Under the pieces are notes generated by a model that saw only the letters and a program-made list of their open reading frames with translations, was not told the DNA's origin and did not search any database. Shown piece by piece: positions 45,240 to 59,816 of a stretch of 64,000 nt of DNA; the first letter of the stretch is position 1, and the number at the start of each line of letters is the position of its first letter. The translations under genes and the position numbers were made by a program. The DNA comes from Amycolatopsis sp. cg9 (GTDB lineage: Bacteria; Actinomycetota; Actinomycetes; Mycobacteriales; Pseudonocardiaceae): NCBI RefSeq assembly GCF_041346945.1, contig NZ_CP166850.1, positions 6,866,501-6,930,500 on the forward strand. Reading direction: 5' to 3'.

Positions 45240-46694
45240 TCAGCGGCCCACCGCGGCGGCCGGTTCGGGGCTCGCGGCCGCCGGCGTCGCAGGGGCACGC
45301 CGGGGCAGGAACGCGGCGACGGCCAATGCGATCAGCGCCGCCGCCGAGCCCATTGCCAGCACCAGCCGGAAGCCGTTCTGGGAGGGCAGGGTCGCCGGTC
45401 CGAAGTGGATGGTCAGGCGGGCGAGGACCAAGCCGGCCGTCGCGCTCGACACCGATGTGCCGATCGAGCGCATCAGCGTGTTGAGGCTGTTGGCCGCCGC
45501 GGTCTCCGACACCGGGACCGCGCCCATCACCAGCGCCGGCATGGCGCCGTACGCCAGCCCGATGCCCGCGCCGATGATGCTCGACACCACCACCAGCTGC
45601 CAGGTCGCGCTCATCAGCCCGATGCCCAGCGCGTACCCGGCCGCGACGACGACCGCGCCGAGCATCAGCGTCGTCTTCGGGCCGCGGGTGCGTGAAATGC
45701 GCGCCGACACCGGGGCGAGCGCCATCATCACCAGGCCCGACGGCGCCATCACCAGGCCCACCACGAGCATCGACTTGCCGAGGCCGTAGCCGGTCGCCGC
45801 CGGCAGCTGCAGCAGCTGGGGCAGGACCAGGGACATCGCGAACATCGCGAAGCCGAACACCGCCGACGCGATGTTGGTCAGCAGCACCTGGCGCCGCGCG
45901 GTCGTGCGCAGGTCGACCAGCGGCTGCGCCGTCCGCAGCTCCCAGCGGCCCCACAGCAGCAGGACGACGACCGCGACCGCGAGCAGGCCCAGCGTCGCCG
46001 GGCTGCCCCAGCCCCAGTCGGCGCCCTTCGAAATCGCCAGCAGCAGGCACACCAGTGCGATCGAAAGCCCGGCCGCGCCCGGCACGTCGAACCGGCCGCC
46101 TGTGCGGACGGGGGACTCCGGCACCAGCGCGACGACCAGGCCGACCACCACCAGCCCGAGCCCGGCCGCGGTCCAGAACAGCACGTGCCAGTCGGCGTTT
46201 TCGGCCAGCAGCGCCGCGGCGGGCAGGCCGAGCGCGCCGCCGACGCCGAGGGACGCGCTCATCAGCGCCGTGGCCGATCCCAGCCGCTCGGCGGGCAGTT
46301 CGTCGCGCATGATGCTGATCCCGAGCGGGATGACGCCGGCCGCGAGGCCCTGCAGTGCCCGGCCGGCGACCATCGGTGCCAGGCTGTCGGACAGCCCGCC
46401 GATGGCCGACCCCGCCACCAGGAAGCCGAGGCTGAGCAGCAGCATCCGCCGCTTGCCGTACATGTCGCCGAGCCGGCCGACGGTCGGCGTCGCCACCGCG
46501 CCCGCGAGCAGGGTGGCGGTGATCGCCCAGGTGGCGTCGGCGGCGGAGGCGTGCAGCAGCCCGGGCAGGGCCGGGATCAGCGGGATGACCAGCGTCTGCA
46601 TCAGCGAGACGACGATGCCCGCGAAGGCGAGGACCCCGACGACGAGGTTCGCGCGGGTCGGCGCCTCGCCGGCTGGGGTGGATGGGTCGGGCAC
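45240..46694 (-). CDS. MFS transporter (DHA2 type)
   Basis: 484-aa MFS protein with about fourteen membrane segments. Seen: WAITATLLAGAVATPTVGRLGDMYGKRRMLLLSLGFLVAGS (motif A), GRALQGLAAGVIPLGISIMRDE and SASLGVGGALGLPAAALLAENADWHVLFW. Divergent from the P450 gene with 100 nt between them, so the P450 product or substrate may be what it exports. Substrate unknown. Confidence 0.9.
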   Translation of the reverse strand: MPDPSTPAGEAPTRANLVVGVLAFAGIVVSLMQTLVIPLIPALPGLLHASAADATWAITATLLAGAVATPTVGRLGDMYGKRRMLLLSLGFLVAGSAIGGLSDSLAPMVAGRALQGLAAGVIPLGISIMRDELPAERLGSATALMSASLGVGGALGLPAAALLAENADWHVLFWTAAGLGLVVVGLVVALVPESPVRTGGRFDVPGAAGLSIALVCLLLAISKGADWGWGSPATLGLLAVAVVVLLLWGRWELRTAQPLVDLRTTARRQVLLTNIASAVFGFAMFAMSLVLPQLLQLPAATGYGLGKSMLVVGLVMAPSGLVMMALAPVSARISRTRGPKTTLMLGAVVVAAGYALGIGLMSATWQLVVVSSIIGAGIGLAYGAMPALVMGAVPVSETAAANSLNTLMRSIGTSVSSATAGLVLARLTIHFGPATLPSQNGFRLVLAMGSAAALIALAVAAFLPRRAPATPAAASPEPAAAVGR

Positions 46695-46727
46695 GGGGTC
46701 CTCCGTCGGGATGTCCGAATTAAATCA

Positions 46728-46766
46728 GTCGCTTGACTTAGCGTAGCAGTCTTCGGTTGACTGATC
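46728..46766. promoter_or_regulatory. AT-rich region with repeated TTGACT between MFS and P450
   Basis: TTGACT occurs at 46733-46738 and 46757-46762, within AGTC-GCTT-GACT and TTGACTGATC. The first lies in an inverted repeat AGTCGCTTGACT. It is distinctly AT-rich for this genome, so promoters or an operator are likely, but I cannot assign them. Confidence 0.4.
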
Positions 46767-46794
46767 ACGAACTGACGGCGAGCGCGGAGGAACG

Positions 46795-48000
46795 ATGACG
46801 AGCACCACCGAAATCCCGGGGTTCCCGATGACGCGCGCCGCGGGCTGCCCGTTCGACCCGCCGCCCGCGGCCCGCGAGCTGCAGGCGGAGGCGCCGCTGG
46901 TTCGCGTCCGGCTGTGGGACGGCAGCACCCCGTGGCTGGTGACCCGCTACGCCGACCAGCGCGCGCTGCTGGCCGATCCGCGCGTCAGCGCCGACGTCAC
47001 GCGCCCCGGTTACCCGAGCCCGGCGCCGCTGCCGAAGGGGGGCACCGGCATCAGCTTCATCCTGATGGACAACCCCGAGCACGCGCGGCTGCGCAAGATG
47101 GTGACCGCGCCGTTCACGATCCGCCGCGTCGCCGCCATGCGCCCGGCGGTGCAGCGGATCGTCGACGACCTGATCGACGAGCTGCTGGCCGGCCCGAAGC
47201 CGGTCGACCTCGTCGAGGCGTTCGCGCTGCCGGTGCCGTCACTGGTGATCTGCGAGCTGCTCGGCGTGCCCTACGCCGACCACGATTTCTTCCAGGACAA
47301 CAGCAAGGTCATCATCCGGCGGGACGCGAAGCCGGAGGAGCGCGCGGCCGGGCACCAAGCGCTCGTCGGCTACCTCGACCGGTTGATGGGGGAGAAGCTC
47401 GAGAACCCCGCCGACGACCTGCTCTCCGGGCTCGCGGCCCGCGTGCGCGCCGGGGAGCTGTCGCGGGTCGAAGCGGCGCAGATGGGCGTCCTGCTGCTCA
47501 TCGCCGGCCACGAAACGACGGCGAACATGATCGCGCTCGGCACGCTGGCCCTGCTGGAGCACCCGGACCAGCTGGCGCTGCTGCGCGAGTCCGACGACCC
47601 GGCGCTGGTGGCGTCGGCGGTCGAAGAACTGTTGCGGTACCTGAACATCACGCACAACGGCCGCCGCCGGGTGGCGCTCGAGGACATCGAGATCGCGGGC
47701 GAGACCGTCCGCGCGGGCGAGGGCCTGATCATGGCCAACGACATCGCCAACCGCGACCCCGCGGTGTTCCCCGACGGCGACCGCCTCGACCTGAACCGCG
47801 ACGCGCACCGGCACGTCGCCTTCGGCTTCGGCGTGCACCAGTGCCTCGGCCAGCCGCTGGCCCGGCTCGAGCTCCAGGTCGTCTACAGCACGCTCTACCG
47901 GCGGATCCCGACGCTCGCGCTGGCGACCGGGGTCGAGCGGATCCCGTTCAAGCACGACGGATCCGTGTACGGCGTGTACGAGCTGCCGGTCACCTGGTGA
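46795..48000 (+). CDS. Cytochrome P450 (CYP105-like)
   Basis: 401-aa soluble bacterial P450. Seen: DNPEHARLRKMVTAPFTIRRV, the I-helix oxygen motif AGHETT (about residue 239), EELLRYLNITHNGRRRVA, ExxR in VEELLR and the heme loop FGFGVHQCLG with Cys350. Length and motifs fit the CYP105/CYP107 type of actinomycetes. It needs a ferredoxin and reductase from elsewhere; none is next to it. Six nt separate it from the converging lexA gene. Confidence 0.94.
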   Translation: MTSTTEIPGFPMTRAAGCPFDPPPAARELQAEAPLVRVRLWDGSTPWLVTRYADQRALLADPRVSADVTRPGYPSPAPLPKGGTGISFILMDNPEHARLRKMVTAPFTIRRVAAMRPAVQRIVDDLIDELLAGPKPVDLVEAFALPVPSLVICELLGVPYADHDFFQDNSKVIIRRDAKPEERAAGHQALVGYLDRLMGEKLENPADDLLSGLAARVRAGELSRVEAAQMGVLLLIAGHETTANMIALGTLALLEHPDQLALLRESDDPALVASAVEELLRYLNITHNGRRRVALEDIEIAGETVRAGEGLIMANDIANRDPAVFPDGDRLDLNRDAHRHVAFGFGVHQCLGQPLARLELQVVYSTLYRRIPTLALATGVERIPFKHDGSVYGVYELPVTW

Positions 48001-48006
48001 GGCGCG

Positions 48007-48660
48007 TCAGACGCTCCGCAGCACCGACACGACCACGCCCAGGATCGCCGCCCGATCGCCGTCGATGACGTCGTAGGCCGGGTTGCGGGGCTCGAGGAAG
48101 ACGTGACCGTTGCGGCGGCGGTACACCTTGACCGTCGCCTCCTCGTCGATCATCGCCGCGACGATCTGGCCGGAGTGGGCCTCGCTCTGCTGCTTGACCA
48201 CGACGATGTCGCCGTCGCAGATGGCGGCGTCGATCATCGAGTCACCGCGGACGCGCAGCCCGAAGACCGTGCCCCGCCCGGTGAGGTCGCGCGGCAGCTT
48301 CAGGACGTCGTCGACGTGCTCGACGGCCGAGATCGGCGTACCGGCGGCGATGTCGCCGACGACGGGCACCGGGACCGAGTCGCGGTCTTCCCGCGCTTCG
48401 CCGCCCTGCAGGAACGCGCGCACGTCCATCGGGCGCGACACGCCGGCCCCGCGGCGCAGGAAACCCTTGTCCTCCAGGCTCGCCAGGTGCTTCGACACCG
48501 ACGACGTCGACTGCAGGCCGACCGCTTCGCCGATCTCGCGGGTGCTGGGGGAGTAGCCGTACCGGACCACCCAGTCCCGGATCGCCACGAGGATCTTCTG
48601 CTGCCGTTCCGGCAGGGCCGCGGCGTCGAGGTGCTCGAAGGTGTCGTCGTAGGTGGTCAC
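48007..48660 (-). CDS. lexA: LexA SOS repressor
   Basis: 217-aa LexA. N-terminal wHTH: QQKILVAIRDWVVRYGYSPSTREIGEAVGLQSTSSVSKHL, then the self-cleavage site AAG (Ala106-Gly107), catalytic RGDSMIDA (Ser141) and ATVKVY (Lys178). It represses DNA-repair genes until RecA filaments trigger cleavage. The GTG at 48660 is the best start. I looked for a GAAC-N4-GTTC box upstream and did not find a clear one, which is unusual for lexA. Confidence 0.95.
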   Translation of the reverse strand: MTTYDDTFEHLDAAALPERQQKILVAIRDWVVRYGYSPSTREIGEAVGLQSTSSVSKHLASLEDKGFLRRGAGVSRPMDVRAFLQGGEAREDRDSVPVPVVGDIAAGTPISAVEHVDDVLKLPRDLTGRGTVFGLRVRGDSMIDAAICDGDIVVVKQQSEAHSGQIVAAMIDEEATVKVYRRRNGHVFLEPRNPAYDVIDGDRAAILGVVVSVLRSV

Positions 48661-48783
48661 GGGCGTGATCCTAGAGGCTCGCCTCCCTCCGTTGCCGACC
48701 GGTCCGCCCCGGCGGGTCCCGCTGACCGGAACAACGAGTGACAGTTGGCGCCTTACCAACATGAACCGGGACTTTGCCAGCCG

Positions 48784-48820
48784 TTGACCTGGATAACGAA
48801 TCGACGTATGGTCTAGACCA
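48784..48820 (+). promoter_or_regulatory. LPMO promoter with DasR-like operator
   Basis: TTGACC (48784-48789), 17-nt spacer, TATGGT (48807-48812). The palindrome TGGTCTAGACCA (48809-48820) overlaps the -10. It matches the core of the DasR-responsive element known from Streptomyces chitin genes (ACTGGTCTAGACCACT-like). Confidence 0.7.
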
Positions 48821-48930
48821 CAATTTTCCTTCGCTCGTAACCCTTCCCGTCGCGGCGGGCCTCCCCGGGGGCCCGGACCGCGGCTTCGCCGTGCCCGGCG
48901 GGAGGCGAGCCTGTCCCCGGAGGAGCTGGT

Positions 48931-49443
48931 ATGAACCGGAAACTGGTCGCGGCCGCGGCGGGTGCTCTCCTGGCCCCGCTGCTGGTGGTCCTCAACCCCG
49001 CCGGCATCGCGAGCGCGCACGGGTACGTCAACGCACCGGCCAGCCGGCAGGCGCAGTGCGCGCAGCACACCGTGTCGTGCGGGCAGATCCAGTACGAACC
49101 CCAGAGCGTCGAGGGCCCGAAGGGCCTGAAGTCCTGCAACGCCGGCCTGGCCCAGTTCGCCGAGCTGAACGACGACAGCAAGGGCTGGCGCGCCTCCCCG
49201 GTCGGCCGCACGGTGACGTTCACGTGGACCTTCACCGCCCGCCACCGCACGTCGAACTACCAGTACTTCATCGGGAACGAGAAGATCGCCGAGGTGAGCG
49301 GCAACAACCAGCAACCCCCGGCGACCGTCTCGCACCAGGTGAACCTGGGCAGCCACACGGGCCGCCAGAAGGTGCTGGCGGTGTGGAACATCGCGGACAC
49401 GTCGAACGCGTTCTACGCCTGCATCGACCTGCAGGTCAGCTGA
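48931..49443 (+). CDS. Chitin-type AA10 lytic polysaccharide monooxygenase
   Basis: 170-aa secreted copper enzyme. Signal peptide of 29 residues, then mature His30 as first residue (SAHGYVNAP). The second copper His is in WTFTARHRTSNYQYF (His105), and the axial Phe region is NAFYACIDLQV. Cysteines 43, 50 and 69 are in the usual places. Single catalytic domain with no binding module. It cuts chitin oxidatively. Regulated, I infer, by the dre-like operator over its promoter. Confidence 0.92.
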   Translation: MNRKLVAAAAGALLAPLLVVLNPAGIASAHGYVNAPASRQAQCAQHTVSCGQIQYEPQSVEGPKGLKSCNAGLAQFAELNDDSKGWRASPVGRTVTFTWTFTARHRTSNYQYFIGNEKIAEVSGNNQQPPATVSHQVNLGSHTGRQKVLAVWNIADTSNAFYACIDLQVS

Positions 49444-49450
49444 GCCACCC

Positions 49451-49481
49451 CCGGCCCGGGAGCGCGCGGCTCCCGGGCCGG
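49451..49481. terminator. Bidirectional hairpin
   Basis: Thirteen-bp stem with a 5-nt loop: CCGGCCCGGGAGC (49451-49463) and GCTCCCGGGCCGG (49469-49481). It separates the LPMO gene and the end of the CHAT operon, which converge. Confidence 0.72.
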
Positions 49482-49486
49482 CGGGT

Positions 49487-50764
49487 TCACCGGCCCGGGC
49501 TCGGATCCGCGGCCCCCGCGCGCTCGCTTTCGCGGGCGGCCCCGGCTCGCGAGGCGCCGGCCGGCTGCGGCGCCGGACGGACGGATTCGTCGAGGATCGT
49601 CTGGGCGATCGCGGCGAGGTCCCGGACGCTCGTCCCGGCCGAGACCATCGCCCGGCGCCGGCGCGTCAAGGCGACGAGGTGGGGGCGGATCGCCTCGGTG
49701 AGCCGGGGCGCCAGGTACTGCAGCAGATCCACTTGAGAACGGGTACTGCTCAGGGTGATCGTGCTCGGCAGGCGATCCGCGATGGCGTACCGGAACGCCC
49801 GCGCCATGAGTCCCACCGGGGTGATCGCGCCGGTGGCCTCGCTCGTCGCCTGTGCCGCGGGGATGACCGCGGCACCGATCCCGGTGAGCGGCTCGACGAC
49901 GCGGGGGTCGTCGCCCGTGGTGGAAATGGCCAGCACCGCGTCGGGCGGAAGCCCGATGAACGGCGGCGGGTCCGCCCCGCCGAGGTCGAAGGCGAAACCG
50001 AACTCGGGCAGTGCCGGGTCCTCGACCACCGTCAGATCGGGCAGGGCCACGCCCAGTTCGGTGTAGAGGCCTTTCCGGGCGGCGGCGAAGCCGTCGGGCG
50101 CCGCGACATCGGCTGATTCCAGCAAGGCTTCGAGGTAACCGGGGTGGATCTTGATCCGCCACGTGCCCGAAGCCAAGCTGTCGACGACCTGTTCGGCGAT
50201 ACCGGCGGCGGGCAACCCGGGATCGACGGCCTGGTGGTACCGATCGTGGGCGTCCCGGAGGGAAAGGCCGAGCCGGAGGGCGAGTTCGAGTCCCGCCACC
50301 GCACCCGGCGGCGGTGCGCCTTCGGAAAGGATCGAAGCCAGGTGGTCGCGGTCCACGAGCGCGATCGCGTTCCGTCCGACGGCTTCGGTCACCACGGCGG
50401 ACAGCACGGTCGAAAACCCGGCGACGTCGCCGGACCGCGCTCGCCCGGCCAGCACGGCCTCCGCTTCGCCGGCTTGCCGGTACCAGGGGATACCCGCGAC
50501 CCCCCGGAACAGCGACGAAGAAGCGGAGTCGTCGGTGTCGCACCGGGCACCGCCGGCCGTGACGGTGAAGAGCTCGAGGGCGTCGGGGGCGCACCCGATG
50601 TTCACGGTGATCCCGACGCCGACGCCGAGCCGGTCCACCAGGTCTTCGAGGGCCTTCTGAACCGCGGTACGGCACCCGAGCAGGCCGGGATCGGACCGGG
50701 CGGCCGGTTGGTGCAGGGCCGGCGCGAGCTCGACGTCGACCGTCGTCTCGGCGGGACTGGTCAT
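49487..50764 (-). CDS. FlhA C-domain-like protein of the CHAT operon
   Basis: 425-aa protein without a membrane segment. Residues about 230-280 (LYTELGVALPDLTVVEDPALPEFGFAF...IGLPPDAVLAI) and about 380-395 (TSVRDLAAIAQTILDE) resemble the cytosolic domain of flagellar/type III export protein FlhA, including the ELGxxxPxLxxxED and S-x-R-D-L-x-x-I runs. It is the last of four overlapping genes (4-nt ATGA with the TPR gene). The N-terminal 200 residues are unassigned. A hydrophilic Ala/Arg/Glu tail ends it. No flagellar genes are nearby. Function unknown; homology by eye only. Confidence 0.65.
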   Translation of the reverse strand: MTSPAETTVDVELAPALHQPAARSDPGLLGCRTAVQKALEDLVDRLGVGVGITVNIGCAPDALELFTVTAGGARCDTDDSASSSLFRGVAGIPWYRQAGEAEAVLAGRARSGDVAGFSTVLSAVVTEAVGRNAIALVDRDHLASILSEGAPPPGAVAGLELALRLGLSLRDAHDRYHQAVDPGLPAAGIAEQVVDSLASGTWRIKIHPGYLEALLESADVAAPDGFAAARKGLYTELGVALPDLTVVEDPALPEFGFAFDLGGADPPPFIGLPPDAVLAISTTGDDPRVVEPLTGIGAAVIPAAQATSEATGAITPVGLMARAFRYAIADRLPSTITLSSTRSQVDLLQYLAPRLTEAIRPHLVALTRRRRAMVSAGTSVRDLAAIAQTILDESVRPAPQPAGASRAGAARESERAGAADPSPGR

Positions 50765-53700
50765 GCCGCTCCACCTCCGGCGCGCTGGATCGGTGGCAGC
50801 TGGGTCCGGGCTTCCCGGGCGGCTGCCGCGTACGACCACTCTTCGTCGGCGACGATCCGGATCAGGCCGTCGAGGTCGCTGTCGGGGCGGAGGCTGACCC
50901 CGGCGTGGAGCAGGTCCCGGAAGACCGTCGTCAGCCGGACGACGCCGCGCTCGTCGAGGTCGGGAGCGTCGACGAGGTGCCCGGCCGTCCGCCACTCCGA
51001 GATCAGCTCGGCGGCGTCGTCGATTCTCACCAGGTCGGCCGCGCCGGCGAGCAAGCGCGCCTCCAGGACACGCATCGGGTAGGTCAGCCGGTCGTGGTCG
51101 CCTCCGGTTTCGATCAGCAGCGCGGACCAGACGACCTGGTCGAAGAAGTGGTGGACCTTGTCCCTGACCCAGCCGACCGCCCGCTCCAGCGCGGTGGCTC
51201 CCGGGTGGCCGGTGCCCTCGGCGCCGGCGGGCGGCGCCACCACCCAGCACCCCTCCGCCCCGGTCAGGGGGTCCGGGACCACCGAGACTTCGACTTCCTG
51301 GCCGAGTTTCGACCGCACGTGCTCGCCCGAGCTCGGAACGTACGCGTGGCCGGGGGGAACATGCCCGGGCACCGCGCGTTGGTCGCCGATCCGGATGCGA
51401 TAGCTGCCGGGGGGCAGCTCGCCGTCTTCCCGGATGCGGATGCCCGGAACGGTGACGCCGGTCGCGGCCCGGACCCGGTCGCGGATCCGGGGGATCGTGG
51501 TGGCGAACAACGGACCTTCCTCGCTCGTGTCCGCCGGCACCAGGTCGGTGGCGATCGAGACGACGATCGGGTCCGTCATCGGCCACGCCCAATCGCCGAG
51601 CGCCGGTGACAGCTGGAACAACTCGTCGCGCACCAGGTCCAGTGCTTCGACCAGCGGGAGCTCGCCGAGGCCGCTCGCCGCCCGGCGGAACCGCACCAGC
51701 CGCGCCGCACCACCGCCGGTCTTCCGGAGGACGTCCGCCAGCTCGTGGGCCGGCACCGCGCCGGCGGCGACGGCGGCGCGTCGCGCTTCGGACTCCTCGC
51801 CCCGCAGCAGCGAGGTGAGGAGGCGACGGCATTCGAGCGCGGTCAGGCAGTCGTCCGGGGGGAGGGGCAGCGGTGTGCTCAGCGCTCGCCCCACGAGGTC
51901 GTGGGCCCGGTCCACCTCGTCGTTCTCGAGCAGCGCGTCGATCGCCACGAGCACCCGCCCCACCAAGCCGGGCTTGTCGATGTCCGGGAGCCCGGCGGAC
52001 TCGAGGACGTCGATCGAGATGAGCGCCGCCTCTTCCCAGCGGGCCGCGGCGATCAGGAGCCGGCTCCGGGTGAGCGCGAACGGCCACCGGCTGTCCTCGA
52101 CGCTCGCTTCGGCGAGCCGGCGGAGAACGTCTTCGGGGTCGAGGTGGGCGGTCTGGAGCCGCCCGGCCAGCCGGTCCACCTCGTCCGCGTGGCGGAGGGC
52201 CGTCGCCGCACCGGCGTCACTCGGGGCCGCGCGGGCGAAGTCGCGCAATTCCCTGGCCAGCTGGCTCGCTTCGAAGACATCGCGAAGGGACGCGCGCAAC
52301 GTCGCCATCTGCTTTTCGGTGACCTCCGGGCGGTCGAGAGCGAGGTGGCACAACATCAGCGTTCCCGCGATGTCACCGGCGGTGTAGGTCGTGCGGTCGA
52401 AATGGGAATCGATGGGCTCGAGCAAGGCGATGGCCTCGTCGTAGCGCCCGCCCCGGTACAGGAGCTCGGCGACGACCGGGATCCCGGCGTACTCGACCCG
52501 TGGATCTTCCCGGTCGATCAGTTCGACGGCACCCGCGGCCGTCGTAGCGGCCGCTTCGGGCTCGGCCCGCAGCAACGCGCGAATCGCGATCAAGCGGGCC
52601 TTGAGCCCTTCGGGCCCGTCGTAGGCGCCGTGCAGCATTTCTTCGGCTTCCCGGTATCGGCCGAGCAGGTACCGGGCGAGCCCGTGCATGAGCACGTTGT
52701 CGGGAGGCAGATCGAGGAATCGCCGGCAGGTCGCCTCCGCCTCCGGATGCCCGCTCTGCAATTGGGCGTAGAGGAGCGTCCACAGCGCGAACTGGTCCCC
52801 TGGGGCCAGAGTCACCGCCTGCTGGGCGCAGCCGAGGGCGACCCCGGCCAGTTCGAGCTCGATGAACGTCTCGGCCAGCCGCGACCACATGTCGCCGTCC
52901 TGGTCGTCGTCCAGGAGGTGTCGTTCGTAAGCTTCGAGCACCGCCAGCATGAGCGGCTTGCTCCGCTCGGGATCCACGTCGGCGAGCTCTCGGTGGATCG
53001 CCGCGGAGGTGTCCAGCGCCCAGGACCAGGCCCAGCTCGTCGGCCCGGCTTCGGTTCCGGCCCGCCACTGCTCCAGTGCCCGCTCCAGCCGGCCGCGTCG
53101 TTCGGCGCGGTCGAGCAGGCCGACCGAGCTCAAGCGGAGCGTCTCGGCGAGGTACCAGCGGGTGAGCGGGCGGTCCGCGGCGCCGAGCGACAACCGGAGG
53201 AGCCGTTCGGCGTCGATGAGCTGTTCTGCCTGGTACGCCTTTTCCCCGGCGTCGAAGTAGGCGTCGGCCACTGCTTCGACATCACGCGGGGGGAGCAGTT
53301 CGGCCTTGAGCTCGCGGAGACTCACCGCGGCCGCCGGATCGTGGTCGACCTTCCCTTCGTCGATGACCCGGGAAACATCGGTGAGTGCCTGCTGCTGCCT
53401 GCCGAGCCGCTTTTCGACGCGGATGAGGGCGTGGAAGACCGCGGGATCGTCGGAATCGCACGCGCGGACCGCGCTGAGCACGCCGTCGACGGAGCCGACG
53501 TCGGCTGAGCGGTCGGCGGCCTGGAGCGCGCCTTCGCAGTTTCCTTCCAGGATGGCGGCTTCGAGTTCGAGGGCGCACAGAATGTTTTCGGCGACCGGTT
53601 CGACCCGGTGGCGCAGGGCGGGGACGATCCGGTCGAGCAGAGCTTTGCGGGCCGGGCCCGCTCCTTCGGCGAGCAGCAATGCGTGCAGCCAGCTCGCGAC

Positions 53701-54000
53701 GGCTTCGAGTGCTTCGGGGGTGTCCTCCACCGCCTCCAGCACCTGGGTGGCGGCGGCAGCGGGTTTCCCCAGGTGCTCGGCGCACTCGGCGTTCATCAGG
53801 AGGAGAACCGCACGGGGCGGGTGCGCACCCCGCTCGGCCAGTGCGGTGGTGATGGCGTCGTGTGCCGCTTCGTACCGCCTCTCCGCGAGGAGTGCCATCG
53901 CGTAATCCGCTGCTGCACGGCGGATCGCCGGCGGAGTGGTCAGCGTGTCCCGGAAGACGTCGGCACCTCGCCAAGCCTGCCATTCCACTCGGGTGGTCAT
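50761..54000 (-). CDS. TPR-like helical protein with C-terminal FlhA-like domain
   Basis: 1079-aa protein. Residues about 1-780 are helical with TPR-like repeats (ALGCAQQAVTLAPGDQFALWTLLYA, FEAY-type runs, GRYREAEEMLHGAY, GGRYDEAIALLEP). Residues about 805-1079 resemble the FlhA cytosolic domain: PIVVSIATDLVPAD, IPRIRDRVRAATGVTVPGIRIRED, LPPGSYRIRIGDQRAVPGHVPPG, ERAVGWVRDKVHHFF, and VFRDLLHAGVSLRPDSDLDGLIRIVADE. FlhA's membrane half is absent. The ATG at 54000 gives MTTRVEWQAW and overlaps the CHAT gene by 4 nt. Repeat count and fold need a model to confirm. Confidence 0.7.
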   Translation of the reverse strand: MTTRVEWQAWRGADVFRDTLTTPPAIRRAAADYAMALLAERRYEAAHDAITTALAERGAHPPRAVLLLMNAECAEHLGKPAAAATQVLEAVEDTPEALEAVASWLHALLLAEGAGPARKALLDRIVPALRHRVEPVAENILCALELEAAILEGNCEGALQAADRSADVGSVDGVLSAVRACDSDDPAVFHALIRVEKRLGRQQQALTDVSRVIDEGKVDHDPAAAVSLRELKAELLPPRDVEAVADAYFDAGEKAYQAEQLIDAERLLRLSLGAADRPLTRWYLAETLRLSSVGLLDRAERRGRLERALEQWRAGTEAGPTSWAWSWALDTSAAIHRELADVDPERSKPLMLAVLEAYERHLLDDDQDGDMWSRLAETFIELELAGVALGCAQQAVTLAPGDQFALWTLLYAQLQSGHPEAEATCRRFLDLPPDNVLMHGLARYLLGRYREAEEMLHGAYDGPEGLKARLIAIRALLRAEPEAAATTAAGAVELIDREDPRVEYAGIPVVAELLYRGGRYDEAIALLEPIDSHFDRTTYTAGDIAGTLMLCHLALDRPEVTEKQMATLRASLRDVFEASQLARELRDFARAAPSDAGAATALRHADEVDRLAGRLQTAHLDPEDVLRRLAEASVEDSRWPFALTRSRLLIAAARWEEAALISIDVLESAGLPDIDKPGLVGRVLVAIDALLENDEVDRAHDLVGRALSTPLPLPPDDCLTALECRRLLTSLLRGEESEARRAAVAAGAVPAHELADVLRKTGGGAARLVRFRRAASGLGELPLVEALDLVRDELFQLSPALGDWAWPMTDPIVVSIATDLVPADTSEEGPLFATTIPRIRDRVRAATGVTVPGIRIREDGELPPGSYRIRIGDQRAVPGHVPPGHAYVPSSGEHVRSKLGQEVEVSVVPDPLTGAEGCWVVAPPAGAEGTGHPGATALERAVGWVRDKVHHFFDQVVWSALLIETGGDHDRLTYPMRVLEARLLAGAADLVRIDDAAELISEWRTAGHLVDAPDLDERGVVRLTTVFRDLLHAGVSLRPDSDLDGLIRIVADEEWSYAAAAREARTQLPPIQRAGGGAA

Positions 54001-55451
54001 GACGCCCTCTCGAATCCGTCGCCGGGCGGTTGCGGAGTCCGTGGAAGCGCACGGGGCTGGCCGGCTGGTTCGTCCGGCTGGTAGCGGGGAACCTCGAACG
54101 CATGGGTGCACACCGGGCATCTCCCGGACTGCGGCTTCTGGAGGTCTTCCCGGCAGCTGCAGCCGGCCGCCGCGTCCTGCCACGAACACGGGCACACGAG
54201 GGGAATCGAGCACTCGGCGCAGAGCTTGTAGATGGCCCGGGTCTCCGCCGAGCAGCGGGGACACGTTCCCTGCGGTGGCCGCGTTTCGCGCTCGGGACGT
54301 GGGCTCCGGTGCCGTGCCTTGACGATCTCGATGTCGCGCTGCAGGTAGATGACCGGTGTGCCGAAGTCTCGGTGGTCCCAGGCGTACTGCTCGCGCACCG
54401 CGAGTTGCTTGCGTCCCTCGAACACCGCCTGGCCGATGGTCTGGTTGTCGATGAGGGCCTTGTAGAAGGCCGCGGCGAAGATGTCCGCCTCGGTCGCGCC
54501 GATGTCGTACTGCATCGCGATGACGGCGGGGACACCGGACCGGACGATCTCGACCGCGGTGCAGTAGAGCGTCTCGGTGTCGGTTCCGCCGCCGTGGCAG
54601 GAGTGCAGGAAAATCAGGCTCGGTGGGGTGGAACCGAACAGTTCACGCAGTTTGCTCGTGTCGACGAGCTCGGTCCGGTCGATGGGCTCGGTCGGCAGGC
54701 GCCGGGAGCGGTCGATCTCCACCCGGGCTTCGTCGGCCGCGATCCGGTCCGATTCGCGGGGCAGCACGATCTTGCCCGGTTCGCCGTGCGCGACGAGGTG
54801 CACGATGTCGGGATTCAGATCGCTGATCTCCTTCTTCAGCTGGCTGAACGTCGGCTGGTGCAGGGGACGGGCGGTGAGCGCGGTCTCGTCGTGGAACAGA
54901 GCCTGGAGCTCTTTGGTGGTGCCTTCGTTGGTTCCGTCCGGAGTGCACAGCGCGAAGAGTATGGACAGGTTGTCGCGCGGGTTGTCGGGGAATTCGCGCT
55001 GGTCCGACAGAACCCGGGTGAGCACCAGCGAATGCGATTCGCCGGTGAGGAAGGTGCCGCTGCCGTCTTGGTGCGTGAGGTAGAGGAATTCCCAGGGAAG
55101 GTTGGTCAGGTCCTCCGCGAGGGGGTGGAAGGTGATGACCAGCCGGAGCGCGTTCGCCCGGCCTTCCTTGACTCGACTCCGGAACTTTTCGAACGTCTGG
55201 CGGAAGGCCAGGTCGACCTCGCCGCGGAAGACGCGGTCGTAGAGATGCCGCCCCAGGATCTTGAGCCCCTCGCCCGAAACCGCGTCGGCGCGATCTCGCA
55301 GGAGCTGACTGAGCCACGTGGTGGTCGCGGTGTGAAGCCCATCCCCGTCGGTCTGGCAGGTGTAGGTCCGCTCGTGGGTTTCGCTGGTGAACCGGACGTT
55401 CGTGTCGTCCACCAGATCCAGGGTGCACTCGATGAACCCGGTTCTGCTCAT
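53997..55451 (-). CDS. CHAT caspase-like protease with zinc-ribbon tail
   Basis: 484-aa CHAT-domain (caspase-HetF-associated) cysteine protease. Seen: LTNLPWEFLYL, DIVHLVAHGEPG with catalytic His222, LIFLHSCHGGGTDT with Cys285, and GVPAVIAMQYDIGATEADIFAAAFYKAL. Residues 395-450 hold ten cysteines in CxxC or CxC pairs (for example CPRC, CAEC, CPVC), a zinc-ribbon-like tail for nucleic-acid or protein binding. CHAT proteases cut partner proteins when activated, as in bacterial defence. The start at 55451 overlaps the preceding gene by 4 nt. Confidence 0.9.
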   Translation of the reverse strand: MSRTGFIECTLDLVDDTNVRFTSETHERTYTCQTDGDGLHTATTTWLSQLLRDRADAVSGEGLKILGRHLYDRVFRGEVDLAFRQTFEKFRSRVKEGRANALRLVITFHPLAEDLTNLPWEFLYLTHQDGSGTFLTGESHSLVLTRVLSDQREFPDNPRDNLSILFALCTPDGTNEGTTKELQALFHDETALTARPLHQPTFSQLKKEISDLNPDIVHLVAHGEPGKIVLPRESDRIAADEARVEIDRSRRLPTEPIDRTELVDTSKLRELFGSTPPSLIFLHSCHGGGTDTETLYCTAVEIVRSGVPAVIAMQYDIGATEADIFAAAFYKALIDNQTIGQAVFEGRKQLAVREQYAWDHRDFGTPVIYLQRDIEIVKARHRSPRPERETRPPQGTCPRCSAETRAIYKLCAECSIPLVCPCSWQDAAAGCSCREDLQKPQSGRCPVCTHAFEVPRYQPDEPAGQPRALPRTPQPPGDGFERAS

Positions 55452-56488
55452 GACGCGCTCCGGATGTGCAGGGCGCGGGCCAGTAGAGGATCGGCTTCTC
55501 GCCGCGTGCTGTCCCACCGTTCGATGCCCTGGGCACGCTCGCGGATCGTGGTGGCCCGCTGTGCCCACCTGGCGTAGACGTCGTCCACGGCGTCGGGCGG
55601 AACGTCCGGACTGGTCGCGATTTCTTCGTAGAGCGCCGCGAGGTAGTTTCGCGTGACCGAGCGGGCGTCTTCGTTGGGGATTCCCGCCCACCGCACGATC
55701 CGGTTCCACAGCGGCGTGAACCACGGCAGCGACTTCAAGTCGACCAAGGGTTCCGCGTCGACGCTGAAGACGATGTAGTCGGTCTTCGCGGGCGGCTTCG
55801 CCGATGCCGCGGTGTCACCTTTCTTCAGCATCCCGCCGTCGAGCCACAGCCGGTCGGCGAGTTCGGAGTCCGGCAGCACCGCGAACGACGCGGAAGGCAG
55901 CTGGTCGCCGTGGAGCTCGATTCGTTCGCCGAGCACGGGCTGCACCTGCTTGTGGCCCAGAGCGGCTTCGACGGCGTCGAGGACACCGTTCGCGATGCCG
56001 AGCCCGGTGGACATCGGACCGCCGACGCCGACCGCGGAGCAGATCTTCTGCACGGCATCGAGCGCGGCACGCACGTAGTCGTCGCGCAAGAGCCGGTACA
56101 GGATCACCGTGACGGCGATCCGCCCGGTGTAGGGGAAGGGGCCGGCGACGAGCGTGTCCGTGTACCGCATGGTGCGCGGGGTGCCGTGTTCGGCGTTCAC
56201 CATCGAAGAGCCGACGACGAACGGGACTCGGCAGGCGGCCCCGTCGAAAACGAACTCGGTGACGGCGAGAACGATCGGATCGTAGGTCTTGCCGAGTACC
56301 TGATCGGAAGCCAGCCGCATGTCGTTCACCGTGACGCGAACGCGGTGGCGATCTTTCACCGCCGGCCCGCCATCCCCGTTTTCCGGCCCGGCGCCCAGTA
56401 CGTGGCCGTCCGGGATCCGGAGCCGGTGGCAGACCGGGAGCTGTGAACGGCCGAAGTTCTGGATGGCGTCGTGAATTCCTCCCGGCAT
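55448..56488 (-). CDS. Unknown protein, first gene of CHAT operon
   Basis: 346-aa protein not recognised. The first 180 residues look beta-rich (RHRVRVTVNDMRLASDQVLGKTYDPIVLAVTEFVFDG, DTLVAGPFPYTGRIAVTVILYRLLRDDYVRAALDAVQKICSAVG). The C terminus looks helical, with DVPPDAVDDVYARWAQRATTIRERAQG. No membrane segment. The ATG at 56488 follows GGGAGACAGG. As leader of the operon it may be the sensor or substrate of the CHAT protease. This is inference from position only. Confidence 0.8.
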   Translation of the reverse strand: MPGGIHDAIQNFGRSQLPVCHRLRIPDGHVLGAGPENGDGGPAVKDRHRVRVTVNDMRLASDQVLGKTYDPIVLAVTEFVFDGAACRVPFVVGSSMVNAEHGTPRTMRYTDTLVAGPFPYTGRIAVTVILYRLLRDDYVRAALDAVQKICSAVGVGGPMSTGLGIANGVLDAVEAALGHKQVQPVLGERIELHGDQLPSASFAVLPDSELADRLWLDGGMLKKGDTAASAKPPAKTDYIVFSVDAEPLVDLKSLPWFTPLWNRIVRWAGIPNEDARSVTRNYLAALYEEIATSPDVPPDAVDDVYARWAQRATTIRERAQGIERWDSTRREADPLLARALHIRSAS

Positions 56489-56677
56489 CCTGTCTCCCTG
56501 AACTCGGCTTGCTGCGATGAGCGTGAGTCGTCGCCGGCAGCCACCGGGTTACACATTGATGTGGCAAAAGTGGGAAATCACTCGGGTGGCGTACGTTGTT
56601 TCGAGGAAGAACGGTGGCCGATGATCGCCTCGTCTTCGAGACGTTTCTTCGCGGGTTTCCGGGACGATCGGCTCGGG

Positions 56678-57253
56678 TCAGTTCTTCGCCGTGCCGGGTG
56701 CGTTCCGGTACGTCAGGATTCCGTCGACGCCGCGCAGGAAGGTTTCGCAGATCGGGGCCGGGTCGGTCAGGCAGCCCGCGGCCATGGCGCCGTCGCGGAG
56801 GAGGACGAAGTGGCGGGCCGCCGGTTCGGGGGCGGATTCGCCGGTGGCCGCCAGCAGTTCGGTGATGGTCTCCAGGAACCAGTGGCGGTGCGTGAGGACC
56901 GCCTGGTGCACCGGGTGGGCCGGGTCGGGGTACTCGGCGGCGGCGTTGAGGAACGCGCAGCCCCGGAAGCCGGGGGAGCGGATGCCGTCCGCGATCGAGG
57001 CGGCGACCGCGCGGACGGTGTCGGCCGGTGGGCCGCCGGCGGTGCGGGCGGCCGCCACCTGGGCGCGGATGGCGTGGTCGGCTTCGGTCAGGTAGGCGAC
57101 CAGCAGGTCGTCCTTGCTGGGGAAGTGCCGGTACAGCGTGGCGCGGGTGACGCCCGCGTCGGCGATGACCCGGTCGATGCCGACCGAGTGGAGTCCCTCG
57201 GTGTAGAACAGCCGGCTCGCCGAGGCGAGCAGCCGGGCTCGGGCTTCGGACAC
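56678..57253 (-). CDS. TetR family regulator
   Basis: 191-aa TetR repressor: RARLLASASRLFYTEGLHSVGIDRVIADAGVTRATLYRHFPSKDDLLVAYL. The C-terminal part CAFLNAAAEYPDPAHPVHQAVLTHRHWFLETI is common in actinomycete TetRs. GTG at 57253 chosen as start. It is divergent from the small membrane protein and two operator copies (57291-57308 and 57347-57364) stand between them. Confidence 0.88.
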   Translation of the reverse strand: MSEARARLLASASRLFYTEGLHSVGIDRVIADAGVTRATLYRHFPSKDDLLVAYLTEADHAIRAQVAAARTAGGPPADTVRAVAASIADGIRSPGFRGCAFLNAAAEYPDPAHPVHQAVLTHRHWFLETITELLAATGESAPEPAARHFVLLRDGAMAAGCLTDPAPICETFLRGVDGILTYRNAPGTAKN

Positions 57254-57290
57254 GTGAACTCCTGCCTCGCGGTGCTGCGCCCAGGCTAGC

Positions 57291-57364
57291 AGATAGAACG
57301 GTCGGTCTTGACGGACGCACCGTGCGCTGCCATAGTCCCCATCACGAGATAGAACGATCTGTCT
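57291..57364. promoter_or_regulatory. Two TetR-type operators
   Basis: AGATAGAACGGTCGGTCT (57291-57308) and AGATAGAACGATCTGTCT (57347-57364) are near-identical 18-bp dyads (pattern AGANAGA-N4-TCTNTCT), 56 nt apart. One is near the tetR start, the other near the DUF308 ATG. Confidence 0.7.
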
Positions 57365-57383
57365 ACCTGATTCGGGAGCACCC

Positions 57384-57941
57384 ATGACCACCCGCACCGT
57401 TCCCGCCGCCGGCACCGCGCAGTCCCTGCGGCGGCTCTACTTCGCCCGGTTCGCGTTCGCCGTCGTCTGGGCCGGCCTGCTGTTCACGACGGCGTCGAGC
57501 CTCGGCCCGGTCAGCGTCGCGCTGCTGGTGCTGTACCCGCTGTTCGACGTGGCCGCCGCCGTGGTCGACGCCCGGTCGTCCGGGGCCGGTCAGCCGGTCC
57601 TGGCGCTGTACGTGAACGTCGCGATCAGCCTGCTGGCGGGCGCCGGACTGGCCTTCGCGGTCTCGTCCGGCATCCCGGACGTCCTGCGCGTGTGGGGGAG
57701 CTGGGCCGTCGTGGCCGGCGCCGTCCAGCTCGCGGTCGGCGTCGCCCGCCGCGCACTGGGCGGGCAGTGGCCGATGATCCTCAGCGGCGGGATCTCCGTC
57801 CTGGCCGGCACTTCCTTCATCCTGCAGGCCACAAAGGACGGTGCGTCGCTGACGACGCTGGCCGGCTACGCGACGCTGGGCGGCGTCTTCTTCCTCGTCT
57901 CCGCGCTGCGGCTGGGTCGCGCGAACAAGGCCGCAGGCTAG
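57384..57941 (+). CDS. DUF308-type membrane protein
   Basis: 185-aa integral membrane protein with six hydrophobic segments, in paired pattern as in DUF308/HdeD-like proteins. Seen: RLYFARFAFAVVWAGLLFTTASS, SVALLVLYPLFDVAAAVVD, ALYVNVAISLLAGAGLAFAV, VWGSWAVVAGAVQLAVGV and WPMILSGGISVLAG. Role unknown, possibly acid or envelope stress. It is divergent from its likely repressor and ends 4 nt inside the converging TetR gene. Confidence 0.83.
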   Translation: MTTRTVPAAGTAQSLRRLYFARFAFAVVWAGLLFTTASSLGPVSVALLVLYPLFDVAAAVVDARSSGAGQPVLALYVNVAISLLAGAGLAFAVSSGIPDVLRVWGSWAVVAGAVQLAVGVARRALGGQWPMILSGGISVLAGTSFILQATKDGASLTTLAGYATLGGVFFLVSALRLGRANKAAG

Positions 57942-59112: not shown

Positions 59113-59816
59113 GCCCGATGACCACGTTCGTCCTCGTCCACGGCGCCTGGCACGGGCCGTGGGCCTGGCACGGCGTCGCAGCCCACCTGCGGGCGGCGGG
59201 GATGCGCACGATCACCCCGGAACTCGGCGCGGGCGGCCTCCACGACGACGCCGGTGCGGTCGCCCGCGCCCTGCCCGCCGGCGAAGAAGTCGTGCTGGTC
59301 GGGCACAGCTACGCCGGCCTGGTCGTGCGGGAGGCGGCCGACGCGCGCCCGGACGCGGTCGGGCACGTCGTCCTGCTGGACGGCTGGGCCGGGCCGGACG
59401 GCGCGAGCCTGGTCGGCTTGGCGCCGGCCGCGTTCGGCCAGGCGATGCGGGCGGCCGCCGCGGCGAACGGCGACGGCCGGCTGATCCCGGCGCCGCCGCC
59501 GGCCGCGTTCGGCGTCACCGAACCGGATCTCGCCGCGTGGCTGGCCGCGCGCCTGCGGCCGCAGGCGCTGCGCACGTTCACCGAACCCACGCGGTTGACC
59601 GGCGCGGTCGACAGCATTCCCGGGACAGCTGTCCACTGCCGGCCGTCGACCTACCCGTTCGACCGGTTCGGGGAGGCGGTCGGGTACGCCACGCGCGCAC
59701 TGGACGGGCCGCATGACGTGCCGCTCACCGACCCCGGGCTGGTCGCCCGTGCGCTCTTGGCGATCCCGGAGCCGCCGCGCACGGCCGTGCCGGGCCCGGC
59801 TAGGTTGCTCGGGTGA
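59109..59816 (+). CDS. Alpha/beta hydrolase
   Basis: 235-aa alpha/beta hydrolase of the esterase/methyl-ketone-hydrolase-like kind. Oxyanion motif VLVHGAWHGPWAW, nucleophile elbow VVLVGHSYAGLVV (Ser in GHSYAG), and the late His in GPHDVPLTDP. Short lid. The start at 59109 overlaps the remnant oxidoreductase and the end overlaps the HNH-like gene (GTGA). Substrate unknown. Confidence 0.88.
   Translation: MSPMTTFVLVHGAWHGPWAWHGVAAHLRAAGMRTITPELGAGGLHDDAGAVARALPAGEEVVLVGHSYAGLVVREAADARPDAVGHVVLLDGWAGPDGASLVGLAPAAFGQAMRAAAAANGDGRLIPAPPPAAFGVTEPDLAAWLAARLRPQALRTFTEPTRLTGAVDSIPGTAVHCRPSTYPFDRFGEAVGYATRALDGPHDVPLTDPGLVARALLAIPEPPRTAVPGPARLLG

Follow-up and report, generated by a model that had tools for sequence, protein, structure and literature searches.

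A conserved four-gene operon in Amycolatopsis sp. cg9 that pairs a CHAT protease with FlhA-type proteins

We analyzed a window of 64,000 nt from Amycolatopsis sp. cg9 (NZ_CP166850.1, 6,866,501-6,930,500; positions below are window coordinates) and describe in it an operon of four minus-strand genes, which codes for a caspase-like CHAT protease together with two proteins that carry a domain of the FlhA cytoplasmic type. The operon is real, conserved, and unusual, and its function is what we infer. Our preferred reading, to which we assign a probability of roughly 40%, is a protease-centred response, in which a scaffold of TPR and FlhA-type domains controls a CHAT protease acting on a variable, perhaps membrane-acting, partner.

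Gene layout, protease, and FlhA-type domains

The genes are arranged as gene 1 (55448..56488; P0001, 346 aa), gene 2 (53997..55451; P0002, 484 aa), gene 3 (50761..54000; P0003, 1079 aa), and gene 4 (49487..50764; P0004, 425 aa), all on the minus strand and all in open reading frames (ORFs) with an ATG start and a stop codon. In a preliminary description of this DNA each gene shares 4 nt with the one after it, and the frames, starts, stops, and junctions agree with this; ATGA overlaps can be read directly at the junctions of genes 1 and 2 and of genes 3 and 4, and the overlap of genes 2 and 3 follows from the coordinates. The purine-rich sequence GGGAGA lies immediately 5' of the gene 1 ATG. 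We found no promoter-like sites, and terminator-like sites numbered 3, against 2.5 in shuffled sequences.

The gene 2 product is the CHAT protease that it had been taken for, as it matches PF12770 in Pfam with 64.7 bits (cut-off, 24; E value, 1.3e-17) and has both catalytic residues in place. His222 (codon 54786..54788, minus strand) stands within HGEPG and Cys285 (54597..54599, minus strand) within SCHGG, and they align with H235 and C304 of the counterpart P0027. Both proteins also have three CxxC motifs, which in P0002 are located near the C terminus (397, 411, and 445). When the PADLOC library was run on the four operon proteins, the sole match was to one CHAT-type profile.

The two genes downstream of the protease code for the FlhA-type proteins. 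In gene 3, weak TPR-like repeats precede a domain of the FlhA cytoplasmic type, and gene 4 joins an unassigned N-terminal part to a domain of the same type with an SVRDL stretch. In Pfam, both exceed the cut-off of 29.1 bits for PF00771 (FHIPEP), P0003 with 37.3 bits (E value, 1.6e-9) over residues 809-921 (51238..51576, minus strand; profile positions 330-436; found also in the whole-genome search) and P0004 with 30.9 bits (1.4e-7), a margin of only 1.8 bits, over residues 187-394 (49583..50206, minus strand; profile positions 321-534). P0028 and P0029 also lie above this cut-off. NCBIfam names gene 3 as FlhA, but far under its cut-off (29 versus 772 bits), and gives nothing for gene 4. In a PDB sequence search the top two rows for gene 3 were FlhA (3mix; E value, 0.012) and LcrD (6wa6; 0.043), which are weak taken alone, and no FlhA row was returned for gene 4. 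LcrD is a SctV homologue, and the aligned spans of genes 3 and 4 can be assigned to the FlhA subdomains D1-D4.

The likeness of both genes to FlhA, already proposed in the preliminary description, is also supported by scores above all shuffles and by profile-profile comparison. We made a profile of 30 actinomycete proteins of the FlhA type, all full length. Against it P0028 scored 34.6 bits and P0003 28.7, with 26.8 for the A. eburnea counterpart of P0003; P0004 scored 11.6 and the gene 4 protein of A. eburnea 12.2. When the residues of P0003, P0004, P0028, and P0029 were shuffled, the highest score in 800 sequences was 4.6; P0029 fails this test, yet passes the Pfam one. In profile-profile alignments with 12 FlhA proteins, the C termini of gene 3 (3 rows) gave a probability of 95.9 (E value, 6.4e-9) and the gene 4 group (3 rows) 94.5 (7.8e-8), with the alignment reaching the RDL stretch, against a probability of 0.2% (0.33) for the gene 1 group as control. 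The gene 3 and gene 4 groups matched each other at 61.8 (7.7e-5).

The multi-pass membrane half of the export gate, which is N-terminal in FlhA, is absent here, as the FHIPEP matches begin at profile positions 330 and 321. The maximum mean hydropathy over 19 residues is 1.33 and 1.38 in the proteins of genes 3 and 4, against 3.38 in a full-length FlhA control, and none of the four operon proteins has a membrane-like segment of the kind present in that control. A profile search of the genome returned no FHIPEP match beyond the two in the operon. The TPR-like character that had been attributed to gene 3 stands in part, since it is strong in the counterpart P0028 and weak in gene 3 itself, where the best repeat-type match has an E value of 0.00028 and all fall below the Pfam cut-off. 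YscY is TPR-like as well.

Conservation in other genomes and the upstream gene

The conserved synteny that the preliminary description proposed to look for was found in the same genus and beyond. A. eburnea has the entire operon with its flanks, with protein identities of 74 to 82% and ratios of nonsynonymous to synonymous substitution rates (dN/dS) of 0.25, 0.28, 0.31, and 0.49 for genes 1 to 4. In G093, a genome of another family of the same order, the four genes stand in the same order with 4-nt overlaps throughout, strongly diverged: compared with the window proteins, the gene 1 type has 27% identity over 292 columns, the CHAT protease 32% over 369, and the TPR-FHIPEP protein 47% to P0003 over 76 (FHIPEP E value, 2.9e-8). 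The protein at the place of gene 4 matches FHIPEP with an E value of 9.3e-10 and has no BLASTP similarity to P0004. G093 has a second FHIPEP match apart from these genes, in an open frame of 746 codons that is likely to be the flagellar FlhA of this genome.

Two genomes of one genus in a third family, G992 and G1111, were reached because the gene 3 profile matched each of them a second time. Their loci (L065 8755-17265 and L066 1732-11961) have the order patatin, metallo-beta-lactamase fold, CHAT, second CHAT, and TPR-FHIPEP, so that the patatin and metallo-beta-lactamase-fold genes stand upstream, at the place of gene 1. The first CHAT has the catalytic pair in both genomes, while the second lacks the catalytic His and Cys. 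The TPR protein of G1111 matches FHIPEP at 7.4e-14 up to profile position 653, and that of G992 remains under the cut-off with 27.6 bits. G1111 also has a further FHIPEP-type gene (28.0 versus the cut-off of 29.1; matched by P0004 at 1.7e-4), and none was found in G992. The stretches retrieved from the two genomes yielded no relative of gene 1. The order CHAT followed by TPR-FlhA is thus common to three families, with the upstream gene or genes varying, and a CHAT gene was present in 5/5 opened loci with a nonflagellar FlhA-type protein, although only G992 and G1111 were reached by an FlhA profile; of the others, one is the window itself and the rest were found through CHAT or gene 1.

Searched in reverse, the gene 3 profile matched 112 of 397 genomes of the order. 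Apart from those in the operons, most of the matches listed are in single open frames of about 680 to 780 codons, which look like flagellar FlhA. Other candidates are a match in G273 that is short and has a stop, and single matches whose frames have at least 1000 codons (e.g., G932, G1068, G856, G942, G068, and G903); the latter frames may be kept open by high GC and contain flagellar FlhA. Within the class, 51 of 394 genomes had an FHIPEP match, and outside the window genome we can recognize no FHIPEP gene of the operon type, since these rows are full length or nearly so (two begin at profile positions 74 and 185).

Gene 1 matched no Pfam family, gasdermin included. In the predicted structure, a C2-like beta-sandwich spans about residues 44-250, a helical hairpin (137-177) is inserted into it, and residues 257-345 at the C terminus are helical, a model that we regard as suggestive only. 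A strongly hydrophobic pore hairpin, considered as a candidate feature, was unsupported on examination. Relatives of gene 1 adjoin a cysteine protease gene, or lie one gene away from it, in 7/9 of the loci read, and these proteases are of the CHAT, C14, and C1 types alike. On the Pseudanabaena plasmid ABRG53a, typed as mobilizable, a relative lies between two C14 caspase-domain genes in a conflict locus with VMAP-C and a MoxR-family ATPase (L036 3706-16142); on the Sporomusa plasmid pSPTER it follows directly 3' of a papain-family C1 peptidase gene (L040 7796-9996); and on a Rhizobium TH2 plasmid a GAF protein, CHAT, the gene 1 relative, and an S8 peptidase are consecutive, with 4 nt shared by the GAF and CHAT genes (L041 4847-12864). 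At a further locus (L049, in G986) the relative is fragment-like, and no protease was recognized among the ORFs scanned there. The family joins actinomycete, cyanobacterial, rhizobial, and Sporomusa protease loci, as a protease-neighbour family without a Pfam match. Searches of 50,697 phage records gave no match to gene 1, and a relative was encoded in 0/39 pattern stretches of viral contigs. At L001 8958-10004, the public A. eburnea gene 1 protein (P0006, 295 aa) begins at an internal ATG, and the longer frame of 348 aa aligns over its full length with the window gene 1.

The accessory cassette and its neighbourhood

The operon had been described as self-contained, and besides its conserved order, it is either there or missing as a single cassette of 7.2 kb (49488..56662). 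In the close relative G036, where the cassette is missing, the blocks matching 45865-49487 and 56663-57923 are about 10 bp apart, which constitutes an empty site. G004 also lacks the operon, since its left block runs to 49514 and is followed after 160 bases by a block that starts at 59771. In G059 the left flank alone is matched. Gene 4 was matched in 1/100 relatives, the window genome itself, and the gene 1 profile in 1/396 phylum, 4/397 order, and 1/5 family-f13 genomes (three overlapping sets, with the window genome included in the phylum and order counts). The cassette ends share no direct repeats, the longest exact shared word being 8 bases, and P0004 has no match in plasmids. A phage origin was considered and rejected, gene 1 having no match in the phage records. 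In PHROGs, to which seven proteins were compared, P0003 matched one family of unknown function through its FlhA-type region (1.1e-4) and P0028 another through its TPR region (1.3e-11), with none for the other five.

Among the ten neighbouring ORFs scanned, some of which may be wrong frames, five are ordinary (a methyltransferase, a P450, a lytic polysaccharide mono-oxygenase, and two TetR regulators) and five have no family. The mono-oxygenase gene (LPMO_10, 48931-49443) converges on the end of the operon. The adjoining region 56663-57923, with a TetR gene, is mostly absent in A. eburnea and present in G036, so that this flank is itself variable. The right-flank gene was found in 0/10 relatives in a search that had no positive control and is uninformative.

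Proposed mechanism, alternatives, and known systems

According to PMC8213127, PMC10965912, PMC9431611, and PMC9163089, the cytoplasmic domains FlhA_C and SctV_C form nonameric rings and bind chaperone-substrate complexes. By analogy, the products of genes 3 and 4 could form a ring-like scaffold, as the preliminary description had suggested. Their FlhA-type domains would assemble a soluble oligomeric platform like those of the secretion gates, the TPR part of gene 3 would receive the trigger, and the platform would gather the CHAT protease and switch it on. The protease would then cut and release a membrane-acting partner, here the C2-like gene 1 product and in G992 and G1111 the patatin phospholipase, there with a metallo-beta-lactamase-fold protein, and the cell might suffer damage to its membrane or stop growing, plausibly in response to phage, in the style of gasdermin-protease operons. 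That patatin stands in the place of gene 1 speaks for an effector role of the upstream slot, and both products could act on membranes. This idea has a precedent, since the genes of bacterial gasdermins often adjoin those of the caspase-like proteases by which they are cleaved (PMC9612521). More generally, the data suggest that bacteria reused part of a secretion machine in a protease-driven response, in a genome that shows no flagellar export gate.

A bolder version, which we hold to be rather improbable, is that the cytoplasmic ring of a type III export gate was freed from secretion and became an inflammasome-like platform, in which a mixed ring of TPR-FlhA and FlhA proteins senses the trigger, activates CHAT (joined in some species by a pseudo-protease), and sets free interchangeable killers that act on membranes, C2-like or patatin. 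To our knowledge, FlhA and SctV cytoplasmic domains are found only as parts of flagella and injectisomes, and if three families pair FlhA-type proteins with CHAT in nonsecretion operons, this fold would have a use not seen before. The four genes would also offer a readily testable model for the control of a bacterial caspase-like protease.

The operon could instead code for a complex of regulated proteolysis or developmental signalling, with the TPR-FlhA scaffold bringing cellular proteins to CHAT and the C2-like protein tethering the complex to the membrane. The description of FlhA_C as a docking platform for chaperones and substrates would fit this, as would the C2-like model of gene 1, the ordinary character of the recognized neighbours, and a PADLOC match limited to CHAT; however, the patchy spread (gene 4 matched, among 100 relatives, in the window genome itself only, the gene 1 profile in few genomes of the order), the clean presence or absence of the cassette, and the swap with patatin fit a conflict system better, and we consider this explanation unlikely. 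Gene 1 might also be a sensor or regulator that activates CHAT on binding the membrane or a molecule of an invader, the toxicity residing in CHAT itself. Its relatives stand next to peptidase genes whether these are of the CHAT, C14, or C1 type, and the Pseudanabaena relative belongs to a locus that includes VMAP-C and a MoxR-family ATPase, which is consistent with such a role, but the stretches of G992 and G1111 have no gene 1 relative, and enzymes with effector-like activities occupy the upstream slot there, so we find this role quite doubtful. As for decayed remnants of flagellar or type III export beside an unrelated protease, FlhA homology taken by itself would favour them. We rejected this candidate, which is largely contradicted and highly improbable: the proteins lack a membrane part and score above shuffles, the four-gene order is kept in another family, dN/dS is <0.5, and the only FHIPEP matches of the genome are those of the operon, while the separate match in G093 is likely to be its own flagellar gene.

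No published system pairing CHAT with FlhA or FHIPEP was found, a weak negative as most subscription journals and preprints lay outside the search; nor was the composition of the operon met with in the literature searched. The terms CHAT, FlhA, and FHIPEP do not occur in the main text of Kaur et al. 2020 (PMC7159879), nor did a term search retrieve FlhA or FHIPEP from PMC8195603, both papers being from the Aravind group. The ternary vWA-MoxR-VMAP systems of the former resemble our case in that the Pseudanabaena gene 1 relative, flanked by caspase genes, is part of a locus of this kind. A VMAP-type system at the operon was rejected, as no MoxR, vWA, or VMAP family was detected in the four proteins or in the ten neighbouring ORFs scanned. 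Craspase (Cas7-11 with TPR-CHAT) likewise combines a CHAT protease with TPR repeats; unlike it, the operon keeps both in separate proteins and adds FlhA-type domains, with no Cas protein among the same four proteins and ten neighbours. We know of no counterpart of the FlhA-type partners in gasdermin-protease operons. Those operons are similar in that the protease gene adjoins a putative membrane-acting partner, and phospholipase or lysozyme genes lie near some of them (PMC9612521), and they differ in that gene 1 has no gasdermin family match and is C2-like in the model. The closest likeness of genes 3 and 4 is to FlhA/SctV, as both align to the cytoplasmic part, gene 4 to the RDL stretch and the G1111 TPR protein to near the profile end; unlike FlhA/SctV, the operon has no membrane export-gate half, TPR-like repeats precede the domain in gene 3, and the whole is paired with a CHAT protease.
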